Source: Thioclava sediminum (lineage in GTDB: Bacteria; Pseudomonadota; Alphaproteobacteria; Rhodobacterales; Rhodobacteraceae). Taken from it: DNA of 64,000 nucleotides. The notes below the pieces were generated by a model, which worked only from the letters and a program-made list of their open reading frames with translations, was not told the origin of the DNA and ran no database searches. Made by a program: the position numbers and the translations under genes. The stretch is taken from the NCBI RefSeq assembly GCF_002020355.1, contig NZ_MPZV01000004.1, forward strand, positions 186,001-250,000, given 5' to 3'. Within the stretch, counting starts at the first letter, position 1, and each line of letters begins with the position of its first letter. Positions 12,480-25,362 of this stretch are shown piece by piece.

Positions 12480-13358
12480 TTATTTCCTGCGGAAAAAGCG
12501 CGCACGGTCATAAAGGGCCTCCAGCCGCGCCATGCGGGCCGAGGTTTCTTCCCAAGTCAGCGACTGGATCGCGGCCATGAGCGTTTCGACCAGAACCTGA
12601 ATCGCGACCGTCGAATCCCAGGCCGAGGGCGCTTCGATCTGCGCCGAGAAGCGATAGCGTGCATGGGTCGCGGCGGGCGAGACCCATGGGTCGGTGATCA
12701 GCACGACTTCCGCGCCCTGCTCGACCGCCATCTCGACCAGTTGCAGCACGCTCGATTCGTAGCGGCGAATGTCGAAAACCAGCAGCACGTCGCCCTTCTG
12801 CATCTCGAGAAGCGCGGGCGGCCAGCTGTTCGAGAGCGGTTCGAGCAGTTCGACCCCGGGGCGGATCACCTTCATATGCGCCACGAAATAGGCCGCGATC
12901 GGGCCGGTGACCCGGCCCCCGGTCGCGAAGATGCGGCGCTTCGGGTCGGCCATCAGCGCGGCGGTGGCGTCGAACTCGGCATGGTCGATCTGTTTCAGCG
13001 TCGCCTGCAGATTGCCCAGAACCGTATCGGCGAAGCGGTTGATCATATGGGTGTCGGGCGCATCCCCTGCCCAGCGATCGTGTTTGACCAGCGGCGAGAC
13101 AAGCTGCGCCTCCAACTCGTCGCGCACCGCCTGCTGCAGCCCCGGATAGCCGCCATAGCCCATCTTCTGCGCCAATCGCACCACGGTGGGAGAGGACACT
13201 TCGGCGGCCCGCGCCAGCTGCGCGACAGATCCCAGAAGCGCCATCGGATAGTGGCGCAGGATATGTCCGGCGAGTTGTTTCTCGGTTCGGGTCATCTCTT
13301 CGATGCCCGTCCGGAGCCTGTCTTCGATGCTTTGCGTCGCTGCTGACAAATCGGGCAC
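12480..13358 (-). CDS. MurR/RpiR-family transcriptional regulator
   Basis: Regulator of the RpiR family (292 aa from the GTG at 13358). The N-terminal winged helix-turn-helix carries LGSVAQLARAAEVSSPTVVR and is followed by MGYGGYPGLQQAVRDEL. A SIS sugar-isomerase-fold sensor domain fills the second half (RIFATGGRVTGPIAAYF; GDVLLVFDIRRYESSVLQL). The start is uncertain: GTG 13358 or TTG 13373 fit the conserved domain, while a longer frame to 13616 runs through the divergent promoter. It is transcribed away from the amidohydrolase/TRAP operon and probably controls it. Family ligands are usually sugar phosphates, but RpiR proteins beside TRAP systems can sense other metabolites. Confidence 0.88.
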   Translation of the reverse strand: MPDLSAATQSIEDRLRTGIEEMTRTEKQLAGHILRHYPMALLGSVAQLARAAEVSSPTVVRLAQKMGYGGYPGLQQAVRDELEAQLVSPLVKHDRWAGDAPDTHMINRFADTVLGNLQATLKQIDHAEFDATAALMADPKRRIFATGGRVTGPIAAYFVAHMKVIRPGVELLEPLSNSWPPALLEMQKGDVLLVFDIRRYESSVLQLVEMAVEQGAEVVLITDPWVSPAATHARYRFSAQIEAPSAWDSTVAIQVLVETLMAAIQSLTWEETSARMARLEALYDRARFFRRK

Positions 13359-13384
13359 CCCCGTGCGAATCAAGTTAGAAATGA

Positions 13385-13399
13385 TTGTAACAGAATTTT
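13385..13399 (-). promoter_or_regulatory. Candidate operator, copy 1 (rpiR/amidohydrolase intergenic region)
   Basis: On the minus strand this reads AAAATTCTGTTACAA, matching 14 of 15 bases of 21336-21350 upstream of the ABC operon. It lies directly upstream of the rpiR start in the divergent promoter region. The same region holds the AT-rich stretch GAATTTTCTTCTCTGAAATT and a -35-like TTGACA at 13416-13421 facing the amidohydrolase gene. An RpiR binding site is the simplest reading, but this is inference. Confidence 0.4.
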
Positions 13400-13495
13400 C
13401 TTCTCTGAAATTTTCTTGACAGATGCGGCTTGGCGGGGCGAGCCTGACCCCAGGACGCGACGTAGAATCGCGCCGCTCAACAGAGAGGGACCGAT

Positions 13496-14266
13496 TTGAA
13501 CAGCGCGCATGCAGCGGTGGAAATCGAAGGCGCGGATCGACCGGGTGAGGTCGTTCTGGTCTGCGAACATGCGTCGAATGCCTTTCCTGCGCCTTGGGGC
13601 GATCTGGGTCTGACACCCGATCAGCGCGAGGCGCATATCGCTTGGGATCCCGGTGCGCTGGGCCTTGCGCGCGGTCTGGCTGCGCAATTGGAGGCGCCGC
13701 TGGTCGCCGCCCGCCAGTCGCGACTGATCTACGATCTCAACCGCCCGCCGCATCATCCGGGTGCAATGCCCGTGACTTCCGAGATTCACGACATTCCCGG
13801 CAATGCGGCGCTTTCGCCGGACGACCGTAGTGCGCGCACCGAGGCGCTATACGAGCCGTTCCACGCATCCCTACGTAGTCTGATCGCCGAGCGGTTGGCC
13901 CGCGGGCGGCCGACGGCGCTGGTGACGGTCCATTCCTTCACGCCGATCTGGTTCGGGAAGCCCCGCGAAGTCGAGCTTGGCGTGATCCACGATGCCGATC
14001 CGAGCCTGGCGCAGGCGGTTCTCGAGGAAGCCCGCCGTGTGACCCAGCTCGATGCGCGTCTTAACGAACCTTACTCCGGCGCGGATGGCGTCTGTCATAC
14101 GCTGGCGCTGCAGGCCACGCCGATGGGGCTGCCGAATGTCATGCTGGAGCTGCGCAACGATCTGATCGCCGATCCTACCGCGCAAGAGGCGATGGCCGTG
14201 ACGCTTGCCCCGGTGCTGCAAGCCGCGCTGTCGCAGATCACCGCAAATAACGGGGAGGCCGCCTGA
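13496..14266 (+). CDS. N-formylglutamate amidohydrolase family protein
   Basis: Zinc-dependent amidohydrolase of the HutG/FGase family (256 aa). The metal-site segment CEHASN is at residues 23-28 and a second histidine motif HSFTP at about 146-150; LIYDLNRPP and the C-terminal VMLELRNDL are also family-like. Translation starts at a TTG preceded by AGAGAGGGA. No histidine-degradation genes are near. Instead it heads an operon with a TRAP importer and lies in the same module as a gamma-glutamyl ligase. It may therefore release an amine or amino acid from a gamma-glutamyl amide rather than deformylate N-formylglutamate (inference). The stop overlaps the next gene by one base. Confidence 0.85.
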   Translation: MNSAHAAVEIEGADRPGEVVLVCEHASNAFPAPWGDLGLTPDQREAHIAWDPGALGLARGLAAQLEAPLVAARQSRLIYDLNRPPHHPGAMPVTSEIHDIPGNAALSPDDRSARTEALYEPFHASLRSLIAERLARGRPTALVTVHSFTPIWFGKPREVELGVIHDADPSLAQAVLEEARRVTQLDARLNEPYSGADGVCHTLALQATPMGLPNVMLELRNDLIADPTAQEAMAVTLAPVLQAALSQITANNGEAA

Positions 14267-14772
14267 TGCCACGCTGGAGTGTCGCCTATGTCCGCCTGAT
14301 CGACGGGTTCAACCGCAAGCTCGGCAAGGTGGCGATGTACCTGCTCTACGTGATGATGGCGATCATGTTGTTTTCGTCGCTGACGAAAATCTTCGAGATT
14401 CCCGCGCTCTGGACGCTCGAAATGGCCCAGTTCACGCTGGTTGCCTATTACATGCTCGGCGCGCCGTGGACGCTGCAGGGAGATACCAATGTGCGGATGG
14501 ACCTGCTGTATTCTCGCTGGTCGCCGAAAGGGCAGGCCTGGTGGGATGCCTTCACCGTTTTCGCGCTGATGTTCTACCTCGGGATCATGGTCTACTCGGC
14601 CTTCGATTCCACGGTCTATTCCTTCGAATATAACGAGCGAAACCCGACCGCGTGGCGTCCGGTGCTGTGGCCGATCAAGGTCATCATCACCACGGGCTTC
14701 GCGCTTCTGTTCTTGCAGGCCGTGGCGCTTCTGATCCGCGATGTCGCGACTATTCGCGGAGAGGAAATCTGA
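14266..14772 (+). CDS. TRAP transporter small permease (DctQ-like)
   Basis: Small membrane subunit (168 aa) of a tripartite ATP-independent periplasmic importer. Four hydrophobic helices are visible (about residues 22-42, 55-70, 92-112, 138-158), as is normal for DctQ proteins. It overlaps the amidohydrolase stop and its own stop overlaps the large permease start, indicating coupled translation. It pairs with DctM to import substrate using a sodium or proton gradient. Confidence 0.92.
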   Translation: MPRWSVAYVRLIDGFNRKLGKVAMYLLYVMMAIMLFSSLTKIFEIPALWTLEMAQFTLVAYYMLGAPWTLQGDTNVRMDLLYSRWSPKGQAWWDAFTVFALMFYLGIMVYSAFDSTVYSFEYNERNPTAWRPVLWPIKVIITTGFALLFLQAVALLIRDVATIRGEEI

Positions 14773-16097
14773 TGGATCACAACACCATCGCCCTTCTGAT
14801 GTTCTCGACGATGCTGCTGATGATGCTGACCGGTCAGCGTGTCTTCGGCGCGATCGGCTTCGTCGCAGTCGTCGCGGCGTTCTGGCTCTGGGGGCCGGGC
14901 GGCACGCAGATGGGCTTCGGCTCGGTCATGAAGCTGATGAAATGGACGCCGCTGCTGACGCTGCCGATGTTCGTCTACATGGGCTACGTGATGTCCGAGA
15001 GCCGTCTGGCCGAAGACCTCTACCGCATGTTCCACGTCTGGTTCGGGCCATTACCGGGCGGCCTCGCCATCGGGACGATCATGCTGATGGTGATGATCTC
15101 GGTGATGAACGGGCTGTCGGTCGCGGGCATGGCCATTGGCGCGACGATCGCGCTGCCGGAACTGCTGCGGCGCAACTACGACAAGCTGATGATCTCGGGG
15201 GTGATTCAGGCGGGCTCGTCCTTGGGCATCCTGATCCCGCCCTCGGTCGTGCTGGTGCTGTTCTCTCTGATCGCGCGGCAGCCGGTGTCGGAACTTTGGC
15301 TGGCAGGTGCGGTGCCGGGGCTGCTGATGGCCACGCTTTTTGTCGCCTATATCGTGATCCGCTGCAAACTGAACCCGGACCTCGCGCCGCCGATGGATGC
15401 GGAAGAGCGCGCCATGATCACCATGCGCGAGAAGCTGCGCCTGCTGCGCGCGGGTCTGATGCCGGTCTTCATCTTCGTTGCGATGATGGTGCCCTTCCTT
15501 AAGGGGTGGGCGAGCCTGACCGAAGCCTCGGTGATCGGCGCGCTGGCCGCTGTCTTCGCGGCGGCCATCAAGCGGCGCTTCACCTGGCAGGTCTTCAAGG
15601 TTTCGACCGAGAACACGCTCAAGATCACCGTCATGTTTATGCTGATCATCACCGCGGCGCTCTCCTTCGGGGCGGTGTTCGACGGTCTCGGCGCGGGCCG
15701 CGCGATCGAAGACTTCTTCACCGAAAGTCTCGGTCTTGGCCCGTGGCAGATCCTGATCCTGATGCAGCTGAGCTTCCTCGTGATGGGGATGTTCCTCGAC
15801 GACACGGCGATGCTGGTGATCGTGGCGCCCGTCTATGTCTCGCTCGCCCGGCATCTGGGCTTCGACATGATCTGGTACGGTGTCCTTTATACCATCACCT
15901 GTCAGGTTGCCTATCTCACGCCGCCCTTCGGTTATAATCTGTTCCTGATGAAGGCGATGGCGCCCAAGGAATTCACCCTGCCGGTGATCTACGCCTCGGT
16001 GATCCCCTTCGTGGGCGTGATGGTCCTGACGCTGATCCTCGTGATGATCTTTCCGCAGCTGGCGCTCTGGCTGCCGCATGCGGTGCTTGGAAGATAA
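14772..16097 (+). CDS. TRAP transporter large permease (DctM-like)
   Basis: Large membrane subunit (441 aa) with about twelve transmembrane helices. Family motifs include the SLGILIPPS segment and the matching QVAYLTPPFGYNLF near the C-terminus, which line the transport path in the DctM/ion-transporter superfamily. ATG 14772 overlaps the DctQ stop. Length is typical. It forms the importer with the adjacent small permease and the downstream binding protein. Confidence 0.95.
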   Translation: MDHNTIALLMFSTMLLMMLTGQRVFGAIGFVAVVAAFWLWGPGGTQMGFGSVMKLMKWTPLLTLPMFVYMGYVMSESRLAEDLYRMFHVWFGPLPGGLAIGTIMLMVMISVMNGLSVAGMAIGATIALPELLRRNYDKLMISGVIQAGSSLGILIPPSVVLVLFSLIARQPVSELWLAGAVPGLLMATLFVAYIVIRCKLNPDLAPPMDAEERAMITMREKLRLLRAGLMPVFIFVAMMVPFLKGWASLTEASVIGALAAVFAAAIKRRFTWQVFKVSTENTLKITVMFMLIITAALSFGAVFDGLGAGRAIEDFFTESLGLGPWQILILMQLSFLVMGMFLDDTAMLVIVAPVYVSLARHLGFDMIWYGVLYTITCQVAYLTPPFGYNLFLMKAMAPKEFTLPVIYASVIPFVGVMVLTLILVMIFPQLALWLPHAVLGR

Positions 16098-16140
16098 CCA
16101 TAACCCGGAAAAACCGGGATCAACCAACAAGGAGAGAGTG

Positions 16141-17178
16141 ATGACGACAAGAAGACAGTTCCTCACCACCGGTGCGGTGGGTGCGGCTGCGGCGGGCCTT
16201 GCGGCCCCGGCCGTCGCGCAGACCACGCCGATCAAGTGGCGTATGCAGACCTATGCCGGACCTGCGCTGGCCGAACAGGTCGTGGACAATTGCATCAAGA
16301 CCTTCAACGAAATCGCCGATGGCGAGATGGAGATCGAACTTTACTACGCCGACCAGCTGGTGCCGACCTCCGAGCTGTTCCGCGCGATGCAGTCGGGCAC
16401 GATCGACGCCGTGCAATCCGACGATGACTCGATGGCCTCGCCCACCGAAGTCACCGTCTTCGGCGGCTATTTCCCCTTCGGCCTGCGCTACTCGCTCGAT
16501 GTGCCGACGCTGTTCAACGAATGGGGTCTCAACGAGATCTGGGACGAGCAGTATTCGGCCGTCGGCGTGAAGCACATCTCGGCGGGCTCGTGGGACCCGT
16601 GTAACTTCGCCATGAAAGAGCCGGTGAAGTCGCTCGACGATCTGAACGGCAAACGGGTCTTCACCTTCCCGACCGCCGGGCGCTTCCTCGCGCAGTTCGG
16701 CGTCGTGCCGGTGACGATCCCGTGGGAAGACGTGGAAGTCGCGCTGCAGACGGGCGAGCTGGACGGCGTCGCATGGTCGGGCATCACCGAGGATTACACC
16801 TCGGGCTGGGGCAAGAACGCGCCCTATTTCCTGACCAACAACATCTCGGGCGCATGGATCGGCCACTTCTTCGCCAACATGGATCGTTGGAACGAGGTGC
16901 CGGATCGTCTGAAGACGCTGATGAAGACCTGCTTCGATCAATCGCATTACCACCGCCAGTACTGGTACTGGTCGGGCGAGGCGAAGCTGCGCGTCGAAGG
17001 CACCGATATGGAGCTGACGACCATTCCGGACGCCGAATGGCAGAAGGTCGAAGACGCCGCCCACAAGTTCTGGGACGAGATCGCGGCCGAGAGCGAGTTG
17101 AAGGCCAAGGTCGTCGACATCTTCAAGAAATACAACGCGACGATGGCGAAGGCAGGCCCGCCCTATCGCTGCGGCTAA
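16141..17178 (+). CDS. TRAP transporter solute-binding protein (DctP family), Tat-exported
   Basis: Periplasmic binding protein (345 aa). It starts with a twin-arginine signal (TRRQFLTTGAVGAAAAG, cleavage probably after APAVAQ near residue 27), so it may be exported folded through Tat. The DctP fold is seen in WRMQTYAGPALAEQ, LNGKRVFTFPTAGRFLAQFG with the conserved arginine, and VDVALQTG-like VEVALQTGELDGVAWSG. AAGGAGAG precedes ATG 16141. A short CCCGG/CCGGG hairpin at 16104-16118 separates it from the permease gene and may allow differential expression. The substrate is not readable; neighbours suggest an amine or organic acid. Confidence 0.93.
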   Translation: MTTRRQFLTTGAVGAAAAGLAAPAVAQTTPIKWRMQTYAGPALAEQVVDNCIKTFNEIADGEMEIELYYADQLVPTSELFRAMQSGTIDAVQSDDDSMASPTEVTVFGGYFPFGLRYSLDVPTLFNEWGLNEIWDEQYSAVGVKHISAGSWDPCNFAMKEPVKSLDDLNGKRVFTFPTAGRFLAQFGVVPVTIPWEDVEVALQTGELDGVAWSGITEDYTSGWGKNAPYFLTNNISGAWIGHFFANMDRWNEVPDRLKTLMKTCFDQSHYHRQYWYWSGEAKLRVEGTDMELTTIPDAEWQKVEDAAHKFWDEIAAESELKAKVVDIFKKYNATMAKAGPPYRCG

Positions 17179-17186
17179 GCAGAGCG

Positions 17187-17266
17187 GGGGCGGCGGAAAC
17201 GCTGCCCCTACGACGCAACATTTGCCCTCTTGTGGGGCCCCGCACCGCGCGGCAATCTCGCGCGGT
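17187..17266 (+). promoter_or_regulatory. Two intercistronic stem-loops before the ligase gene
   Basis: A 9-bp stem with a GAAA tetraloop (17187-17208, arms GGGGCGGCG and CGCTGCCCC with one G-T pair) is followed by an 8-bp stem ACCGCGCG/CGCGCGGT (17244-17266). Neither has a long T tract. The first resembles a weak terminator or mRNA 3'-end stabiliser after the binding protein gene. The second lies 22 bases before the ligase start codon. They may tune expression between importer and enzymes. Confidence 0.45.
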
Positions 17267-17288
17267 GATCTTGATCCCGGAGGAACTC

Positions 17289-18653
17289 ATGTCGCGTAAA
17301 TTATCGTTCGACGCGCTCAAGAAATCGGTCAATGCAGGCGAGGTCGATACGGTCATCGCAGCCCTTGTGGATATGCAGGGACGGCTTCAGGGCAAGCGGT
17401 TCCACGCGGCGCATTTCATCGACAGCGCATGGGAAGAGACCCATTGCTGCAACTACCTGCTGGCGACCGACATGGAGATGGTCACGGTGCCGGGCTATGA
17501 CGCGTCCAGCTGGGAGCGCGGCTACGGCGATTACGTGATGAAGCCCGACATGGAGACGCTGCGGCTGATCCCGTGGGTTCCGGGCACGGCGCTGGTGATC
17601 TGCGATCTGCTCGATCATCACAGACACGAGCCGATCCCCCATGCGCCGCGCCAGATGCTGAAATCGCAGCTCAAGCGCGCCAAGGACATGGGCTTTGACG
17701 TGATGATGGCGACCGAGCTGGAGTTCTTCCTGTTCGAGGAAAGCTATCCGCAGCTCTTTGATGCGGGTTATCCCGATCCGACCCCGGTCGCGCGCTACAA
17801 TGTCGACTATTCGCTGATGGGCAATTCGCGCGCCGAACCGGCGATGCGGGCGATGCGCAACGCGCTTTATGCGGCGGGCGTGCCGGTCGAATGCTCCAAG
17901 GGCGAGGCCGAATGCGGTCAGGAAGAGCTGAACGTGAAATATGCGGGCGGGCTTCAGACCGCCGACATGCATGTGCTGGTCAAGCAATGCGCCAAGGAAG
18001 TCGCCCAGTCCCACGGGCTCTCGGCGACCTTCATGGCGAAATACCACACCGACAAGGCGGGCTCGTCGAGCCACGTTCACCAGTCGCTCTGGAAGGGCGG
18101 CAAACCGGCCTTCTTCGACAAGGACGCGCCGAACGGCATGTCCGAGTTGATGCACCAATTCCTTGCCGGGCAGCTGACCCATGCGCGCGAGATCACCTAT
18201 TTCCTCGCGCCGTATACCAACAGCTACAAGCGCTTCTGCGAGGGGCTTTTCGCGCCGACGAAAGCGGTCTGGTCGCTCGACAACCGCACGGCGGGCTTCC
18301 GCATCTGCGGCGAGGGCACGAAAGGAATTCGCGTCGAGTGCCGCATCGGCGGGGCCGACCTGAACCCCTATCTGGCCTGCGCGTCGCTTCTCGCGGCGGG
18401 GCTGGCCGGGATCGAGGGTGAGATGGACCCGAGGCCGGAAGCCGCGGGCGACATCTACAAGGCGGGCGAAGTGACCGAGGTGCCGAAATCCCTGACCGAG
18501 GCGCTGGGCGCTCTCGAAGGTTCGGACATGCTCAAATCCGCCTTCGGTGAGGACGTGATGGCCCATTACGTGCGCGCCGCTCGCTGGGAAATCGAAGAAC
18601 AGAACCGAGTTGTGACCGACTGGGAGCGGATGCGCGGTTTCGAACGCGCCTGA
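17289..18653 (+). CDS. Glutamine synthetase family protein, probable gamma-glutamyl-amine ligase
   Basis: Glutamine-synthetase-fold ligase (454 aa). The N-terminal beta-grasp part contains VDMQGRLQGKRF. The catalytic part contains ATELEFFLF (metal-binding glutamates), the His-containing KAGSSSHVHQSLW loop and NRTAGFRICGEGTKGIRVECRIGGADLNPYL. It is close in style to GlnA-like gamma-glutamylpolyamine, -ethanolamine and -methylamine synthetases rather than to housekeeping GlnA. It lacks the adenylylation-loop sequence of GlnA. These enzymes join the gamma-carboxyl of glutamate to an amine using ATP. CGGAGGAA precedes ATG 17289. The neighbouring ADH and ALDH, with no flavin amine oxidase, suggest an amino-alcohol substrate (inference). 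Confidence 0.88.
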   Translation: MSRKLSFDALKKSVNAGEVDTVIAALVDMQGRLQGKRFHAAHFIDSAWEETHCCNYLLATDMEMVTVPGYDASSWERGYGDYVMKPDMETLRLIPWVPGTALVICDLLDHHRHEPIPHAPRQMLKSQLKRAKDMGFDVMMATELEFFLFEESYPQLFDAGYPDPTPVARYNVDYSLMGNSRAEPAMRAMRNALYAAGVPVECSKGEAECGQEELNVKYAGGLQTADMHVLVKQCAKEVAQSHGLSATFMAKYHTDKAGSSSHVHQSLWKGGKPAFFDKDAPNGMSELMHQFLAGQLTHAREITYFLAPYTNSYKRFCEGLFAPTKAVWSLDNRTAGFRICGEGTKGIRVECRIGGADLNPYLACASLLAAGLAGIEGEMDPRPEAAGDIYKAGEVTEVPKSLTEALGALEGSDMLKSAFGEDVMAHYVRAARWEIEEQNRVVTDWERMRGFERA

Positions 18654-18697
18654 GTTTTGACAGACCCGCGGGGCCCTACACCCCGCAAGGAGACATG

Positions 18698-20086
18698 ATG
18701 ACCAAGACCCTGAAATGTATCTCGCCCGTCGACGGGCAGGTCTATGCCGAACGCGAGGCGCTGAGCGCCTCCGACGCGCAGGCGCTGGCCGCGAGCCTTC
18801 GCGCCGCGCAGCCCGCATGGGCCGAACGCCCGCTGTCGGAGCGTATCGCGCTCGTCGAGGCGGGCATCGCCAAGCTCAACGAGATGAAGGATCTCGTGGT
18901 CGAGGAGCTTGCGTGGCAGATGGGCCGCCCGACCCGCTATGGCGGCGAATTCGGCGGCATGAACGAGCGCGCGGGCTACATGGCCTCGATCGCTGAAGAG
19001 GCGCTCGCCCCGATGGTGGTCGAGCAGAGCGACAGCTTCCTGCGCCAGATCGCGCGCGAACCGGTCGGCGTCGTCTTCATCATCGCGCCGTGGAACTACC
19101 CCTATATGACGGTGATCAACTCGCTGGTTCCGGCGCTGATCGCGGGTAACACGGTGATGTTGAAGCACGCGACCCAGACCATGCTGGTGGGCGAGCGTAT
19201 CGCCGAAGCCTTCCACGCGGCGGGCGTGCCGCAGGACGTGTTCCAGAACGTCTACCTCACGCACGAGACCTCGGAAGAGCTGATGGGCGCGAAGGCGTTC
19301 GATTTCGTCAACTTCACTGGCTCGGTCGGGGGCGGCCGCGCGGTGGAGCGCGCGCTGGCGGGCACCTTCACCGGGCTGGGCCTAGAACTGGGCGGCAAGG
19401 ATCCGGGCTATGTGGCCGCGGATGCCGATCTGGATGCGGCGGTCGACGGGCTGATGGATGGCGCGCTGTTCAACGCGGGCCAGTGCTGCTGCGGGATCGA
19501 GCGGATCTACGTCCATGCCAGCCTCTACGATGCGTTCGTCGAAAAGGCCGCAGCCTGGGCGAGCAAGCTGACCCTCGGCAATCCGTTCGAACCGGAGACG
19601 ACCCTCGGCCCGATGGCCAACAAGCGCTTCGCCGAAGTGGTGCGCGGCCAGATCGAGGATGCGATCACCGATGGCGCCAAGCCGCTGCTCGACCCCGAGC
19701 TGTTCCCGGCAGACGACGGTGGCGCCTATCTCGCGCCGCAGATCCTCGTCGACGTGAACCACGAGATGCGCGTGATGCGCGAGGAAAGCTTCGGTCCCGT
19801 CGTCGGCATCATGCCGGTGAAGGATGACGAGGAAGCCATCGCCGCGATGAACGATTGCGATTACGGGCTGACCTGCTCGATCTGGACCGCCGATCCCGCC
19901 CGCGCCGAGGCGATGGGCAAGCGGCTGCAGACCGGCACCGTCTTCATGAACCGCTGCGACTATCTCGACCCGGCGCTGTGCTGGACCGGCTGCAAGGAAA
20001 CGGGCCGTGGCGGCTCGCTCTCGGTGCTGGGCTACCACGCGCTGACGCGTCCGAAATCCTACCATCTCAAGAAGGTGACGAAATGA
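18698..20086 (+). CDS. Aldehyde dehydrogenase family protein
   Basis: NAD(P)-dependent aldehyde dehydrogenase (462 aa from ATG 18698; an in-frame ATG at 18695 adds one residue but leaves only two bases after AAGGAG). Motifs are the APWNYPY substrate/cofactor entry, FTGSVGGGRAV for nucleotide binding, ELGGKDPGYV with the general-base glutamate, and GQCCCG with catalytic Cys264. The C-terminal part TGCKETGRGGSLSVLGY is typical of the semialdehyde-type ALDHs. It lies between the gamma-glutamyl ligase and the alcohol dehydrogenase, and overlaps the latter by four bases. It would oxidise the aldehyde made from the bound amino alcohol. Confidence 0.93.
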   Translation: MTKTLKCISPVDGQVYAEREALSASDAQALAASLRAAQPAWAERPLSERIALVEAGIAKLNEMKDLVVEELAWQMGRPTRYGGEFGGMNERAGYMASIAEEALAPMVVEQSDSFLRQIAREPVGVVFIIAPWNYPYMTVINSLVPALIAGNTVMLKHATQTMLVGERIAEAFHAAGVPQDVFQNVYLTHETSEELMGAKAFDFVNFTGSVGGGRAVERALAGTFTGLGLELGGKDPGYVAADADLDAAVDGLMDGALFNAGQCCCGIERIYVHASLYDAFVEKAAAWASKLTLGNPFEPETTLGPMANKRFAEVVRGQIEDAITDGAKPLLDPELFPADDGGAYLAPQILVDVNHEMRVMREESFGPVVGIMPVKDDEEAIAAMNDCDYGLTCSIWTADPARAEAMGKRLQTGTVFMNRCDYLDPALCWTGCKETGRGGSLSVLGYHALTRPKSYHLKKVTK

Positions 20087-21237
20087 CTGCCCCCACCGCA
20101 AACTGGTCCTATCCGACCACGATCAAATTCGGCCCCGGCCGGATTTCGGAACTGGCCGATCACTGCAAATCCGTGGGTATCGCGAAGCCGCTTCTGGTGA
20201 CCGACAAGGCGCTGGCCGCACTGCCGATCACCGCCGGGGCGCTCGACGTGCTGGATGCGGCGGGTCTTGGCCGCGCTGTGTTCTCCGAGGTTGATCCGAA
20301 CCCGAACGAGGGCAACATGGCCGCCGGGATCGAGGTCTATAAGGCGGGTGGCCATGACGGCGTGATCTGCTTCGGCGGCGGCTCCGCGCTCGATCTGGGC
20401 AAGATGATCGCGCTGATGGCGGGGCAGGACGCTTCGCTGAGCGTCTGGGATCTGGAAGATATCGGCGACTGGTGGACGCGGGCGAATGGTGACGCCATCG
20501 CGCCGATCATCGCGGTGCCGACGACGGCCGGGACCGGCTCGGAAGTGGGCCGCGCAGGCGTTCTGACCAATTCCGAGACTCACAAGAAGAAGATCATCTT
20601 CCACCCGAAACTGATGCCTGCGATCACGATCTGCGATCCGGAGCTGACGGTCGGCATGCCGCCCTTCATCACGGCGGGCACCGGGATGGACGCGCTGGCG
20701 CATTGCCTCGAGGCGTTCTGTAGCCCGCATTACCACCCGATGAGCCAGGGTATCGCGCTCGAAGGGATGCGGCTCGTCTTCGAGAACCTGCCGCGTGCCT
20801 ATACGACGCCGGACGATCTGGAAGCCCGCGCGAACATGATGTCGGCTGCGGCGATGGGGGCGGTGGCCTTCCAGAAGGGCCTCGGCGCGATCCACTCGCT
20901 GAGCCACCCGGTCGGCGCGGTCTACGGCACCCATCACGGCACCACCAATGCCTGCGTGATGCCGATGGTGCTCGACTTCAACCGCGCCACCATCGAGGAG
21001 CGGATCAACCGCGCGGCGGCGTATCTGGCCATCGCGGGCGGCTTCGAGGGCTTCAAGGCCCGGATCGAGAGCCTGCGGACCGAATTGTCCATCCCGGCGA
21101 ACCTGACCGAGATGGGCGTGAAGCGCGAAGATCTCGACATGCTGGTCGAGATGGCGCTGGAAGATCCGTCCTGTGGCGGCAACCCGGTCGAGATGACGGC
21201 CGAGAATACCCGCGCGCTTTACGAGGCGTGCCTTTGA
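20083..21237 (+). CDS. Iron-containing alcohol dehydrogenase (group III)
   Basis: NAD(P)-dependent Fe-ADH (384 aa). The nucleotide-binding motif is GGGSALDLGK with VPTTAGTGSEV downstream. The metal ligands are the aspartate and histidine in GMDALAHCLEA, and histidines in AIHSLSHPVGAVYGTHHGTTNA. ATG 20083 overlaps the ALDH stop (ATGA), so alcohol and aldehyde oxidation steps are co-translated. In a gamma-glutamylation route it would oxidise a terminal CH2OH to CHO. The reverse (aldehyde reduction) cannot be excluded from sequence. Confidence 0.93.
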   Translation: MTAPTANWSYPTTIKFGPGRISELADHCKSVGIAKPLLVTDKALAALPITAGALDVLDAAGLGRAVFSEVDPNPNEGNMAAGIEVYKAGGHDGVICFGGGSALDLGKMIALMAGQDASLSVWDLEDIGDWWTRANGDAIAPIIAVPTTAGTGSEVGRAGVLTNSETHKKKIIFHPKLMPAITICDPELTVGMPPFITAGTGMDALAHCLEAFCSPHYHPMSQGIALEGMRLVFENLPRAYTTPDDLEARANMMSAAAMGAVAFQKGLGAIHSLSHPVGAVYGTHHGTTNACVMPMVLDFNRATIEERINRAAAYLAIAGGFEGFKARIESLRTELSIPANLTEMGVKREDLDMLVEMALEDPSCGGNPVEMTAENTRALYEACL

Positions 21238-21246
21238 CATCGGCGC

Positions 21247-21269
21247 GAGCGGGGGCTGCGCCCTCGCTC
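21247..21269 (+). terminator. Stem-loop after the alcohol dehydrogenase gene
   Basis: A 10-bp GC-rich stem (GAGCGGGGGC / GCCCTCGCTC with one G-T pair and a 3-base loop) starts ten bases after the ADH stop. No T tract follows, so it is either a weak terminator or a 3' stabilising hairpin. Confidence 0.45.
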
Positions 21270-21335
21270 GTTGGCGCGGCTCACGCGTCTGTAACTAGTG
21301 TTGATGAGGAATTTTGCTTCAACATCTGTACTGCC

Positions 21336-21350
21336 AAAAATCTGTTACAA
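21336..21350 (+). promoter_or_regulatory. Candidate operator, copy 2 (upstream of the ABC operon)
   Basis: AAAAATCTGTTACAA matches 14 of 15 bases of the rpiR-region element at 13385-13399. Related TCTGTAAC and TCTGTACT words lie at 21288 and 21325. The element is in the 239-base gap between the ADH gene and the binding protein gene, where a separate promoter for the ABC operon is expected. It is oriented towards the ABC genes as copy 1 is towards rpiR. Confidence 0.4.
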
Positions 21351-21476
21351 CGCCCGCATAAAGGGTCGCCGATGCCGGAGCCAACCGGACGGCACAACCG
21401 TCGAAAGACATTAGCTCGGGGGAGACAGGACCGCATGAGGCGGCACCGCCCTCCATCAACGGGGAGAGACCTGAAA

Positions 21477-22583
21477 ATGACCTTCAAGTTCCGTTACCTT
21501 GCAGCGGCCAGCGCCATGGCCCTTGCTGCCAGCACCGGCGTCAGCTTCGCCGACAGCATGGATGACCTCTACGCTGCTGCGAAAGAAGAAGGCAGTCTGA
21601 CCACGATCGCGCTGCCGCATTCGTGGTGCAACTACGCGGGCGTGATCGACGGCTTCAAGAAGAAGTATCCCGGGATCACCGTGAACGAGCTGAACCCCGA
21701 TGCGGGCTCGGCCGATGAACTCGAAGCGATCCGCGCCAACAAGGACAACAAGGGTCCGCAGGCGCCCGACGTGATCGACGTGGGCCTTTCCTTCGGCCCG
21801 GCGGCCAAGGACGAGGGTCTGATCCAGCCCTACAAGGTCTCGACCTGGGACACGATCCCGGACAGCGCCAAGGATGCCGAAGGCTACTGGTATGGCGACT
21901 ACTACGGCGTGCTGTCGTTCGCGGTGAACAAAGACATCGTCGACAACGTGCCGCAGGACTGGTCGGACCTGCTCAAGCCGGAATACGCGAACTCGGTGGC
22001 TCTGGCGGGCGATCCGCGCGCCTCGAACCAGGCGATCCTCGGCGTTCTGGCCGCGGGCGTCGCAGCAGGCGGCGAGCCGGGCAAAGCCTCGGGCGAAGCC
22101 GGTCTGAAATACTTCGCCGAGATGAACAAGAACGGCAACTTCGTGCCCGTCATCGGCAAGACCGGGACGCTCGCTCAGGGCGCGACCCCGATCGTCGTCG
22201 AGTGGGACTATAACGCTCTGGCCGGTCGCGACACGCTGAACGGCAACCCGCCGGTCGACGTCGTCGTGCCGAAATCGGGCGTCGTCGCCGGCGTCTACGT
22301 TCAGGCGATCTCGGCCTACGCGCCGCACCCGAACGCAGCCAAACTCTGGATGGAATACCTCTATTCGGACGAAGGTCAGCTCGGCTGGCTCGAAGGCTAT
22401 TGCCACCCGATCCGCTTCAACGACCTGTCGGCCAACGGCAAGGTTCCGCAGAAGATGCTCGACGCGATGCCGCCCGCCGAGGGCTACGCCAAGGCGGTCT
22501 TCCCGTCGCTCGACGCGCAGGCTGCGAACAAGGAAGTCGTGACCGGCGGCTGGGATAGCGTCGTCGGCGCGAACGTCCAGTAA
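21477..22583 (+). CDS. ABC transporter extracellular solute-binding protein (family 1, PotD/AEP-type)
   Basis: Periplasmic binding protein (368 aa). A Sec signal peptide is followed by a probable cleavage after VSFA near residue 24. The mature part starts SMDDLYAAAKEEGSLTTIALP, as in iron, polyamine and 2-aminoethylphosphonate binders of the spermidine/putrescine class. ATG 21477 is the first start after GGGGAGAG. It heads a four-gene ABC operon. The ligand cannot be assigned; the adjacent gamma-glutamylation enzymes suggest an amine-bearing compound. A strong stem-loop follows the gene, as is common where the binding protein is made in excess over the permeases. Confidence 0.9.
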   Translation: MTFKFRYLAAASAMALAASTGVSFADSMDDLYAAAKEEGSLTTIALPHSWCNYAGVIDGFKKKYPGITVNELNPDAGSADELEAIRANKDNKGPQAPDVIDVGLSFGPAAKDEGLIQPYKVSTWDTIPDSAKDAEGYWYGDYYGVLSFAVNKDIVDNVPQDWSDLLKPEYANSVALAGDPRASNQAILGVLAAGVAAGGEPGKASGEAGLKYFAEMNKNGNFVPVIGKTGTLAQGATPIVVEWDYNALAGRDTLNGNPPVDVVVPKSGVVAGVYVQAISAYAPHPNAAKLWMEYLYSDEGQLGWLEGYCHPIRFNDLSANGKVPQKMLDAMPPAEGYAKAVFPSLDAQAANKEVVTGGWDSVVGANVQ

Positions 22584-22603
22584 CCGAACCCGCATAAGCA
22601 CAC

Positions 22604-22627
22604 GCCCCGCGCCTGATCGCGCGGGGC
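22604..22627 (+). promoter_or_regulatory. Stem-loop between binding protein and permease genes
   Basis: A perfect 9-bp stem GCCCCGCGC/GCGCGGGGC with a 6-base loop, followed by GACTTTATT. It can act as a partial terminator or a 3' stabiliser, giving more binding protein than permease mRNA. Confidence 0.6.
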
Positions 22628-22660
22628 GACTTTATTGAAAATTCTGCAAAGCGAGGCCCG

Positions 22661-23515
22661 ATGCAAAGCCGCAAGCTGCCGCTGACTTGGGTGGGGATGG
22701 TTCCCTTCACGCTCTTCGCGCTTTTGTTCCTGATCGCACCGACGATGTATATCGTGGTGGGCGCGTTTAGGACGAGCGACGGGGGCTTCACGCTGTCGAA
22801 CCTCGTGAACCTGTTTCAACCGACGATCCTCGCGAGCTACTGGATCTCGATCAAGATCAGCCTCGCCACTGCGCTTGTAGGCTGCCTGATCGGCTTCGCG
22901 CTGGCCGCCGCCGTCACGCTGGGCGGCCTGCCGAACTGGCTTCGCGGTCCGGTGATGACCTTCTCGGGCGTGGCCTCGAACTTCGCAGGCGTGCCACTGG
23001 CCTTCGCCTTCCTCGCGACGCTGGGACGTCTGGGTCTCGTGACCGTGCTGCTGAAGTCGTGGTTCGGCTTCAACATCTACAGCCACGGCTTCAACCTTCT
23101 CAGCTTCTTCGGCCTGACGCTGACCTATCTGTTCTTCCAGATCCCGCTGATGGTGCTGATCATCACCCCGGCGCTGGACGGTCTGAAGCGCGAATGGAAA
23201 GAGGCGGCGAGCATCCTCGGTGCGACCGGCTTCCAGTATTGGCGCATTGTCGCGCTGCCGATCCTCTGGCCCTCTCTGCTGGGCACGCTGGCGCTGCTGT
23301 TCGCCAATAGCTTCGGCGCGGTGGCGACGGCCTATGCGCTCACCGGCTCGTCGATGTCGATCGTGCCAATCATGCTTTACGCGCAAATCCGCGGCGATGT
23401 GCTGCAGGACCCGCATCTGGGCTACGCGCTGGCCTTCGGGATGATCGTCATCACCGGCCTCGCCAACCTCGCCTATGTCTGGCTCCGCGTACGCTCGGAA
23501 AGGTGGATGCGATGA
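22661..23515 (+). CDS. ABC transporter permease 1 (PotB-like)
   Basis: Inner-membrane permease (284 aa) of the ABC importer with about six hydrophobic helices. The EAA loop contains EWKEAASILGATGFQYWRIV followed by LPILWP. Its stop overlaps the second permease start as ATGA. It belongs to the spermidine/putrescine- and phosphonate-type permeases, in which two different permeases form the channel. Confidence 0.92.
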   Translation: MQSRKLPLTWVGMVPFTLFALLFLIAPTMYIVVGAFRTSDGGFTLSNLVNLFQPTILASYWISIKISLATALVGCLIGFALAAAVTLGGLPNWLRGPVMTFSGVASNFAGVPLAFAFLATLGRLGLVTVLLKSWFGFNIYSHGFNLLSFFGLTLTYLFFQIPLMVLIITPALDGLKREWKEAASILGATGFQYWRIVALPILWPSLLGTLALLFANSFGAVATAYALTGSSMSIVPIMLYAQIRGDVLQDPHLGYALAFGMIVITGLANLAYVWLRVRSERWMR

Positions 23516-24300
23516 AATCCAAGAAACTCTGGTCCTGGCTCGCACTGGCGTTCGGGGCGCTTTATTTCGCGCTGCCGCTGCTCGGCACGCTGGAATTCTC
23601 GCTGCGCGCGCGGCGCGGGGTCTATTCGCTCGACGCTTACCGCTCGGTGCTCGCCGATCCGCAATTCCGCGAAACCTTCAGCTACTCCGTCGTGATGGCG
23701 ATCTTTACGATCCTCGTGGGCGCGCTGATCGTGGTGCCGACCGCCTATTGGGTGCGTCTCAAGCTGCCGCATTGGCGCCCGGTGGTGGAGTTCATCACGC
23801 TCCTGCCGCTGGTGATCCCGCCGATCGTGATCGTCTTCGGCTATATCCGGCTCTATAACACCTCGTCGATCCTGCCGCTGACCGGCACGACGACGGGCAC
23901 CAACCTCCTGCTGATGCTGGGCTATGCCACGCTCTCGCTGCCTTACATGTATCGCGCGGTCGATACCGGGCTGCGCACCATCGATGTCGGCACGCTGACC
24001 GAAGCCGCGCAAAGCCTCGGCGCCGGGTGGAGCACGATCCTCGCCCGCGTCATCCTGCCGAACGTGCTGGTAGCGGTGCTCTCGGGCGCCTTCATCACCT
24101 TCGCCATCGTCATCGGCGAGTTCGTCCTCGCCTCGCTCCTCAACCGGCCAGCATTCGGCCCCTATATGCAGCTGACCGGCGCGAACAAGGCTTACGAGCC
24201 CGCCGCGCTTGCGGTGATCGCCTTCTCGATCACCTGGATCTGCATGGGGCTGATCCAACTCGTCACCCGGTTTTCCAAACATACGAACGCAAAGCGGTAA
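23512..24300 (+). CDS. ABC transporter permease 2 (PotC-like)
   Basis: Second inner-membrane permease (262 aa). The EAA loop reads TEAAQSLGAGWSTILARVILP. ATG 23512 overlaps the preceding stop and has AAAGGTGG upstream; an upstream in-frame GTG at 23503 is less likely. It ends three bases before the ATPase gene. It pairs with the first permease. Confidence 0.92.
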   Translation: MKSKKLWSWLALAFGALYFALPLLGTLEFSLRARRGVYSLDAYRSVLADPQFRETFSYSVVMAIFTILVGALIVVPTAYWVRLKLPHWRPVVEFITLLPLVIPPIVIVFGYIRLYNTSSILPLTGTTTGTNLLLMLGYATLSLPYMYRAVDTGLRTIDVGTLTEAAQSLGAGWSTILARVILPNVLVAVLSGAFITFAIVIGEFVLASLLNRPAFGPYMQLTGANKAYEPAALAVIAFSITWICMGLIQLVTRFSKHTNAKR

Positions 24301-24303
24301 CCC

Positions 24304-25362
24304 ATGGCCTCTCTCGAGATCGAACATCTGGAAAAATCCTTCGGCGCGAACCGCGTGGTGAAGGATTTCAACCTCTCCATCGAAGAGGGCGAATTTATCT
24401 CGCTGCTCGGCCCGTCGGGCTGCGGCAAGACGACCGTGCTGCGGATGGTGGCAGGCTTCGAGAGCCCTTCGGGCGGCGCGATCCGCATCGGTGGGCAGGA
24501 CGTCACGCATCTGGGGGCGAACCAGCGCAATATCGGCATGGTGTTCCAGGCCTACGCGCTGTTTCCCAACCTGACGGTCGCGCAGAACGTGGGCTTCGGG
24601 CTGCGCGTGGCGAAACGTCCGCGCGCCGAGATCAAAGCCCGTGTGACCGAGATGCTGGAGCTGATCGGCCTGCCCGATCTGGGCAACCGCTACCCGTTCC
24701 AGCTGTCGGGTGGGCAACAGCAGCGGGTGGCGCTGGCCCGCGCGCTCGCCATTCAGCCGCGCGTGCTGCTGCTCGACGAGCCGCTTTCCGCGCTTGATGC
24801 GAAGATCCGCGTCTCCTTGCGCGAAGAGATCCGCGACATTCAGCGCCGCCTCGGCATCACCACGATCTTCGTGACGCACGATCAGGAAGAGGCGCTGTCG
24901 ATCTCGGATCGGGTGGTGGTGATGAATGGCGGTGTGGCCGAGCAGATCGGCGCGCCTTTCGAGATCTACAACCAGCCGAAGACCCGCTTCGTCGCGCAAT
25001 TCGTGGGCACGCTGAACGCGCTCGAGGCCGAAGTGGCCGATCCGGAACGCGGCGCTCTGCGCGTCGGCAGCACCGAGGTGATCCTGTCCGAACCGGTCAC
25101 CGCGGGCCAAGGCACTCCGGTCACGCTGGCCGCGCGGCCCGAAGTTCTGGCGCTGGGCCGCCGCGAGGGCAATGACACAGTGTTCACGGGGCGGATCGTC
25201 GAGACGCATTTCCTCGGCTCGATTCTGCGGGTGAGAATGGAAGTGGAAGGGCAGCTTATCGCGCTCGACACGTTCAACCGTCCCGGCAATCCGCCGCCCA
25301 AGGTCGGCACCGAGGCCGAGGTCAGCGTCGCAAGCCGCGATCTGCTCGTTCTGGCCGACTGA
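24304..25362 (+). CDS. ABC transporter ATP-binding protein (PotA-like)
   Basis: ATPase (352 aa) with Walker A GPSGCGKTT, signature LSGGQQQRVALARAL, Walker B VLLLDEPLSALD and the switch histidine in VTHDQEEAL. The C-terminal TOBE domain (about residues 275-350) contains AARPEVLALG. It completes the four-gene importer. It is distinct from the sugar-type ATPase at 1780-2898. A stem-loop follows the stop. Confidence 0.94.
   Translation: MASLEIEHLEKSFGANRVVKDFNLSIEEGEFISLLGPSGCGKTTVLRMVAGFESPSGGAIRIGGQDVTHLGANQRNIGMVFQAYALFPNLTVAQNVGFGLRVAKRPRAEIKARVTEMLELIGLPDLGNRYPFQLSGGQQQRVALARALAIQPRVLLLDEPLSALDAKIRVSLREEIRDIQRRLGITTIFVTHDQEEALSISDRVVVMNGGVAEQIGAPFEIYNQPKTRFVAQFVGTLNALEAEVADPERGALRVGSTEVILSEPVTAGQGTPVTLAARPEVLALGRREGNDTVFTGRIVETHFLGSILRVRMEVEGQLIALDTFNRPGNPPPKVGTEAEVSVASRDLLVLAD

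Follow-up and report, generated by a model that had tools for sequence, protein, structure and literature searches.

Ethanolamine released from membrane lipids is widely available as a source of carbon and nitrogen. A run of twelve genes in Thioclava sediminum, at positions 12480 to 25362 of the window (the whole 64,000-nucleotide stretch analyzed, C4:186001-250000 of a 4.13-Mb genome; positions below are window positions), encodes an RpiR-type regulator, an FGase-family hydrolase, a tripartite ATP-independent periplasmic (TRAP) importer, a glutamine synthetase (GS)-like ligase, an aldehyde dehydrogenase (ALDH), an iron-type alcohol dehydrogenase (Fe-ADH), and a complete ATP-binding cassette (ABC) importer. 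Judged by gene order and protein similarity, the genes from 12480 to 21237 very probably form an eto operon for ethanolamine use. The eto operon is a known system, and we have high confidence that the window holds a new member of it.

The first eight genes stand in exactly the published eto order, namely, RpiR, γ-glutamylglycine amidohydrolase (GGAH), EtoVWX, ligase, ALDH, and Fe-ADH. This gene set, identically ordered, has been described in Phaeobacter sp. MED193 (MED193_10021 to -10056; PMC10132767). At that locus (L050), where RpiR is likewise opposite, protein identity to the counterparts in the window is 40 to 77% (best local identities: RpiR, 40%; hydrolase, 48%; DctQ, 42%; DctM, 59%; EtoX, 77%; ligase, 58%; ALDH, 68%; ADH, 69%). 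MED193 EtoX is reported to bind ethanolamine with a dissociation constant (Kd) of 7.9 µM, and the hydrolase, EtoX, ligase, ALDH, and ADH proteins all increase on phosphorylethanolamine, EtoX being raised also without phosphate (PMC10132767). The name GGAH for the eto hydrolase comes from the same publication, which credits Vetting 2015 with demonstrating the pathway in Chromohalobacter salexigens and Agrobacterium tumefaciens; in contrast to this wording, PMC6529630 describes the Chromohalobacter pathway as predicted in silico.

All twelve genes are present at the coordinates and on the strands given in a preliminary description of this DNA (Table 1). Pfam assigned 10 of the 12 proteins (RpiR/SIS, FGase, DctQ, DctM, DctP, Gln-synt_C, Aldedh, Fe-ADH, SBP_bac_6, and, for one permease, BPD_transp_1); the family of the ABC ATPase was named from NCBIfam, and ABC permease 2 was recognized from orthologues only. 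That description's ATGA overlaps in the enzyme part hold for the ALDH/ADH junction (20083 to 20086) only, while the genes at the FGase/DctQ and DctQ/DctM junctions share 1 base each and the two ABC permease genes share 13 bases. The RpiR start is uncertain, with TTG at 13373 or GTG at 13358 the likelier sites in an open frame that extends to 13616; GTT at 13391 was rejected, as it is not a start codon.

Table 1. Features of the eto region and the adjoining ABC operon (window positions)
Feature	Position	Strand	Basis or detail
RpiR/MurR-type regulator	12480-13373	-	HTH_6 and SIS domains; opposite strand to the operon in 59 complete loci
Divergent promoter region	13374-13495		TTGTAACAGA at 13385-13394; conserved TTGACA at 13416-13421
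FGase-family hydrolase, GGAH orthologue	13496-14266	+	PF05013, 148.7 bits
TRAP small permease EtoV	14266-14772	+	PF04290; synteny
TRAP large permease EtoW	14772-16097	+	PF06808; synteny
EtoX, putative TRAP ethanolamine-binding protein with twin-arginine (Tat)-type leader	16141-17178	+	569 bits to PDB 4uab/4xf5
GS-like ligase (putative ethanolamine γ-glutamylase)	17289-18653	+	PF00120, 343.1 bits; 595 bits to 5dm3
ALDH (γ-glutamyl-aldehyde oxidation, by orthology)	18695-20086	+	PF00171, 400.9 bits; 68% to MED193
Fe-ADH (γ-glutamylethanolamide oxidation, by orthology)	20083-21237	+	PF00465/PF25137; 69% to MED193
ABC operon promoter region	21238-21476	+	11-bp repeats CTGCCAA-N4-CTGTTAC-N4-CCCGCAT at 21331-21359; weak taken alone
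TTGTAACAGA within ABC operon promoter region	21341-21350	-
ABC substrate-binding protein (SBP_bac_6)	21477-22583	+	Pfam/NCBIfam; orthologues adjoin eto or EutBC genes
ABC permease 1	22661-23515	+	PF00528
ABC permease 2	23503-24300	+	Orthology only
ABC ATPase	24304-25362	+	TIGR03265, 433.9 bits (cutoff, 457.7); potA, 344.8 bits (cutoff, 355.6)

Predicted pathway and its proteins

In the predicted pathway, ethanolamine would be taken up by the TRAP importer EtoVWX and joined to glutamate by the GS-like ligase with ATP, giving γ-glutamylethanolamide. Fe-ADH and then ALDH would oxidize the CH2OH group to COOH, and the resulting γ-glutamylglycine would be cleaved to glycine and glutamate by the FGase-type hydrolase, with RpiR as the likely regulator of the operon. 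For this Thioclava, the enzymatic steps and the regulation are all inferred. The scheme of the preliminary description, in which a ligase is followed by ADH and ALDH and then by an FGase-like amidohydrolase, matches that printed for the MED193 operon (PMC10132767); since the same eight-gene operon and pathway have been published for MED193, the scheme was correct and had already been described in print.

The ligase, one of several GS-family proteins in this genome (four further genes were found), scores below the NCBIfam cutoffs for GlnA (TIGR00653; 259.4 bits, cutoff 429.15), type III GS/GmaS (TIGR03105; 245.5 bits, cutoff 469.6), and the PuuA model GGputSyn (218.9 bits, cutoff 650). In an alignment, the position of GS E327 is occupied by Phe in the ligases of the window, MED193, and Chromohalobacter, which indicates that the ammonia-site Glu is lost in the window ligase. 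Phe (F331) is also found at this place in GlnA4 of Streptomyces coelicolor, an assayed γ-glutamylethanolamide synthetase (PMC6529630), whose likeness to the window ligase, for SCO1613, was judged by this residue only. The GlnA4 pathway has been proposed, by analogy with Chromohalobacter, as a γ-glutamyl route to glycine and glutamate with an FGase-family hydrolase; it differs from the eto pathway in that a short-chain dehydrogenase replaces Fe-ADH, and the figure legend includes no TRAP importer (PMC6529630).

A GS-like ligase encoded with an ALDH could also belong to a polyamine (Puu-type) pathway in which the ligase glutamylates putrescine, and the ABC system resembles PotABCD, its ATPase falling just below the cutoff of the PotA model (TIGR01187; Table 1). 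We consider this very improbable given the GGputSyn score, and neither a flavin amine oxidase nor a PuuD-type amidotransferase was identified by Pfam and NCBIfam in the 11 of 12 proteins scanned, in agreement with the preliminary description. To our knowledge, a Puu-type route has no place for an alcohol dehydrogenase.

The hydrolase is 43 to 45% identical to its eto counterparts in MED193 and Chromohalobacter and 19% identical to the strongest PF05013 protein of this genome, which is putatively HutG-like (global alignments). It scores 253.5 bits against PDB 2odf (Atu2144) and 21.9 bits against the HutG model TIGR02017, below the cutoff of 278.75. By these comparisons, it is assigned to the GGAH type, not to HutG. 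An FGase paralogue at G000:C2:504611-505225 (L003) is 38% identical to the window hydrolase.

EtoX, which shares 100% identity with the Thioclava sp. JE_KL1 protein (L004), aligns with PDB 4uab/4xf5 over 315 residues without gaps. The 4UAB structure is of Csal_0678 of C. salexigens, the EtoX orthologue of a corresponding cluster, with bound ethanolamine held by Glu220 (PMC10132767, PMC12410723, PMC4646407, with the Glu220 contact given in PMC12410723). Glu217 of the window EtoX aligns, within the same motif, with Glu220 of the Chromohalobacter orthologue at the Chromohalobacter israelensis locus L048, where gene order is as in the window; in this alignment the ligand-platform Glu is kept.

Conservation and near-exclusion with EutB

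An EtoX query of a genome collection returned at least 594 pattern-matching stretches, at least 589 of them relatives, of which the best 80 were kept, all with at least 72% identity. The conservation of the gene set, a check proposed in the preliminary description, is borne out by 59 of these 80 loci, in which all eight eto genes are colinear with RpiR opposite. Complete sets occur at 57 of the 67 loci that are adequately flanked (4 kb or more upstream of EtoX and 4.3 kb or more downstream); counted singly, the ligase is found at 63 of the 67, ALDH at 62, ADH at 63, the hydrolase at 60, and RpiR at 61. The arrangement is not due to chance.

A family survey of 246 evenly drawn genomes (E values up to 1e-120 for the ligase and up to 1e-100 for EtoX) found the ligase in 151, EtoX in 134, and both in 126. 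Of the 25 genomes with the ligase and without EtoX, 18 loci were examined, and at 8 of them (L139, L140, L141, L144, L145, L149, L151, and L156) the ligase gene stands beside the Fe-ADH gene and the stretch contains no match to the operon ALDH, possibly a variant pathway. Next to the ligase of genome G097 is another kind of ABC importer, whose binding protein belongs to the SBP_bac_8 family (L143:9688-12765).

EutBC, which also uses ethanolamine, represents a B12-dependent lyase route, and the γ-glutamylation route proceeds without that lyase. Neither EutB nor EutC was found in this genome. EutB scores above its cutoff in 18 of the 246 family genomes (G041, with 28-residue fragments only, was left out of the count), and 17 of these 18 are without the ligase. 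The two enzymes are found together in a single genome (G208) against 11.0 expected (Fisher P of 4e-7), a value that is too small because the genera are related; the direction of the exclusion is plain. It suggests that the ligase and EutB routes do the same job, and because they nearly exclude each other across the family, the published pathway is supported from an independent side.

Among the eight genomes that have EtoX and no ligase, four carry EutB (G125, G189, G197, and G232) and four neither enzyme (G004, G013, G041, and G143). In G197, EutB directly follows EtoVWX, with one stop codon inside the EtoX match. Within the genus, EutC occurs in 3 of 16 genomes (G251, G252, and G255), two of which lack EtoX at an E value of 1e-120, and G255 has an EtoX of only 64% identity located 1.5 kb from EutC; G257, the third EtoX-less genome in the genus, has no EutC. 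Because EtoX adjoins EutB or EutC in G197 and G255, and because the genomes with EtoX and no ligase partly carry EutB, the EtoVWX importer seems to serve either route, γ-glutamylation or EutBC.

The preliminary description had named ethanolamine, alaninol, and 3-aminopropanol as candidate substrates. Of these, orthology, the match of EtoX to an ethanolamine-binding protein, and the exclusion with EutB together point to ethanolamine. The chemistry of the operon would suit any primary amino alcohol, so that the same route might act on L-alaninol, serinol, or 3-aminopropanol and release an amino acid other than glycine. In favor of this we count PDB 4xf5, the same protein as 4uab, which was reportedly solved with 2-amino-1-propanol. 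We regard another substrate as unlikely in view of the affinity of MED193 EtoX for ethanolamine and the response of that operon to phosphorylethanolamine (PMC10132767), the near-exclusion of EutB, an ethanolamine enzyme, by the ligase, and the EtoX and ABC orthologues that adjoin EutB or EutC in some genomes. Several points weigh against an ethanolamine operon: its enzymes and the orthologues compared are assigned by sequence, GGAH being an assigned name; the assayed ligase, GlnA4, is a Streptomyces relative likened through the Phe at E327 only; EtoX may accept other amino alcohols too; and the exclusion statistic takes no account of relatedness among genera, with both enzymes occurring in one genome.

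The ABC importer and its promoters

The ABC system at 21477 to 25362 is most likely a second importer for the same catabolism, carrying ethanolamine or a phosphorylated form; its position makes this role a probable one. Its linkage to eto or EutBC genes, the near-exclusion of the ligase and EutB, and the Pho-box-like repeats described below are what the computation adds. A literature search, with most subscription papers outside its reach, found no publication that links this importer to ethanolamine.

Orthologues of the ABC binding protein (E value up to 1e-40) occur in 35 of the 246 family genomes, and in 6 of the 35 an eto or eut gene lies no more than 10 kb away (counted by eye). The ABC genes are located downstream of the eto genes on the same strand in G000, downstream and convergent in G122, upstream of RpiR in G105, upstream in an eto operon without TRAP genes in G242 (with EtoX 1 Mb distant), adjoining EtoVWX with no ligase found in G041, and divergent from EutBC in G006, with 196 bases between the open frames. 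Among the 80 loci named above, the importer is present in six (L004, L012, L014, L015, L017, and L024); within the genus, it occurs in 12 of 16 genomes and lies 5 kb from EtoX in 5, all near-identical relatives. The ligase or EutB is found in 31 of the 35 ABC genomes versus 137 of the 211 others (P = 0.005).

On plasmids, the ABC orthologue was found in 72 records (60 listed) and the ligase in 26 (25 listed), and among the matches listed the two lie within 7 kb of each other in at least six records (Sinorhizobium K101, M103, and C101; S. meliloti pSymB strain Ak57; Rhizobium leguminosarum pSK03; and Shinella PSBB067). The S. meliloti and R. leguminosarum records have RpiR followed by the ABC genes on the same strand, with an amino acid permease where the TRAP genes would be (L163:5253-6800 and L164:5254-6810; TIGR00907-like, below the cutoff), and the Shinella record has both importers. 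Linkage is thus seen in several arrangements in two orders, in Rhodobacteraceae and Rhizobiaceae copies; we read these, without a tree, as four or more arrangements, none of which is easily derived from another.

It is possible, although we think it unlikely, that the importer is unrelated to eto and lies downstream by chance, its cargo being a polyamine, aminoethylphosphonate, or another organophosphate. In favor of this, no eto or eut gene was found close to 29 of the 35 family copies, which lie on a different contig, at a large distance on the same one, or in a genome with neither gene. The nearest named binding-protein models, those of 2-aminoethylphosphonate importers, also favor this reading and are matched below their cutoffs (PhnS, TIGR03227, 63.2 bits versus 395.3; for the ATPase, PhnT, TIGR03265, as in Table 1). 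Orthologues elsewhere occur with amidase, agmatinase, or aminotransferase genes. In Caballeronia, Ensifer, Terrarubrum, and Roseateles the orthologues have other neighbors, and some family copies adjoin aminotransferase or ALDH genes. Against a chance neighborhood, the linkage recurs in both Rhodobacteraceae and Rhizobiaceae with varied gene order and strand, and one copy is divergent from EutBC. The role as a second ethanolamine importer is further weakened, beyond the 29 unlinked copies and these other neighbors, by the 4 of 35 ABC genomes with neither pathway by these searches, by MED193, which has no orthologue of the importer in its 21-kb locus and only a 34% homologue of the binding protein in its genome, and by the Chromohalobacter genome of L048, where no match to the binding protein was obtained at an E value of 1e-20; the structural model of the binding protein is poor (predicted local distance difference test [pLDDT], 37; seven-sequence alignment).

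A phospho-lyase had been considered for the class III aminotransferase beside some ABC copies and was dropped, NCBIfam giving generic aminotransferases only. At L166:7929-13696 and L168:7932-13686, the ABC orthologue is followed by a xylose isomerase-like TIM barrel protein and an inositol monophosphatase-family protein (Pfam for L166 only), near a betA-like GMC oxidoreductase and an agmatinase. The 34% homologue of MED193 heads an ABC operon (L162:6982-11493) that ends in a phosphodiesterase-like protein (SpdA model, 111.4 bits; cutoff, 400).

We take the Pho box consensus to be CTGTCAT repeats with an 11-bp period. CTGTYAY is present in 19 of 35 ABC promoters, a set in which L004 and L084 have nearly the same promoter. 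Around it, similarity to CTGTCAT over 31 offsets peaks at -11 (3.29 of 7) and +11 (2.95), the next value being 2.57 at -16. CTGTCAY is denser in ABC promoter regions (12 occurrences in 15 regions; 3.3 per kb) than in the remaining intergenic regions (4 in 98; 0.17 per kb), all regions being set by a simple open-frame caller. As a set, the ABC promoters carry what look like Pho-box-like 11-bp repeats. Taken singly, a minority reach a shuffle score of 0.01 or less (L012/L014, L017, L093/L120, L125, L126, L128, and L130); the window is not among them, its own box being weak (10 of 14; shuffle P of about 0.14).

The word TTGTAACAGA is found in 15 of 73 eto promoters and twice in the 4.13-Mb genome, once each in the eto and ABC promoters; the reversed word, as a control, is found once. 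We make no claim of coregulation through a common RpiR operator, because the word was chosen after both promoters had been viewed and it overlaps the Pho-box-like repeat in the ABC promoter. The shorter word GTAACRGA is present in 12 of 36 ABC promoters, whereas random windows average 0.6, but in comparison with other intergenic regions the ratio is only 2 hits to 1. A 45-base eto promoter motif (56 instances printed, L004 excluded from the matrix) has no match in the window's ABC promoter (-6.2 versus 53.7 at its own eto site), and the best ABC promoter for it is that of G122 (19.3).

MED193 has a large PhoB regulon, and the import of intact headgroups is left open in the discussion of PMC10132767. 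We tentatively propose that the ABC importer is switched on by phosphate starvation and feeds ethanolamine, phosphoethanolamine, or glycerophosphoethanolamine to γ-glutamylation or EutBC, whichever is present. The importer is a candidate second entry for ethanolamine or its phosphate ester and would link phosphate starvation to the use of lipid headgroups; if so, it would also be a candidate for the intact-headgroup transport that was left open for MED193.

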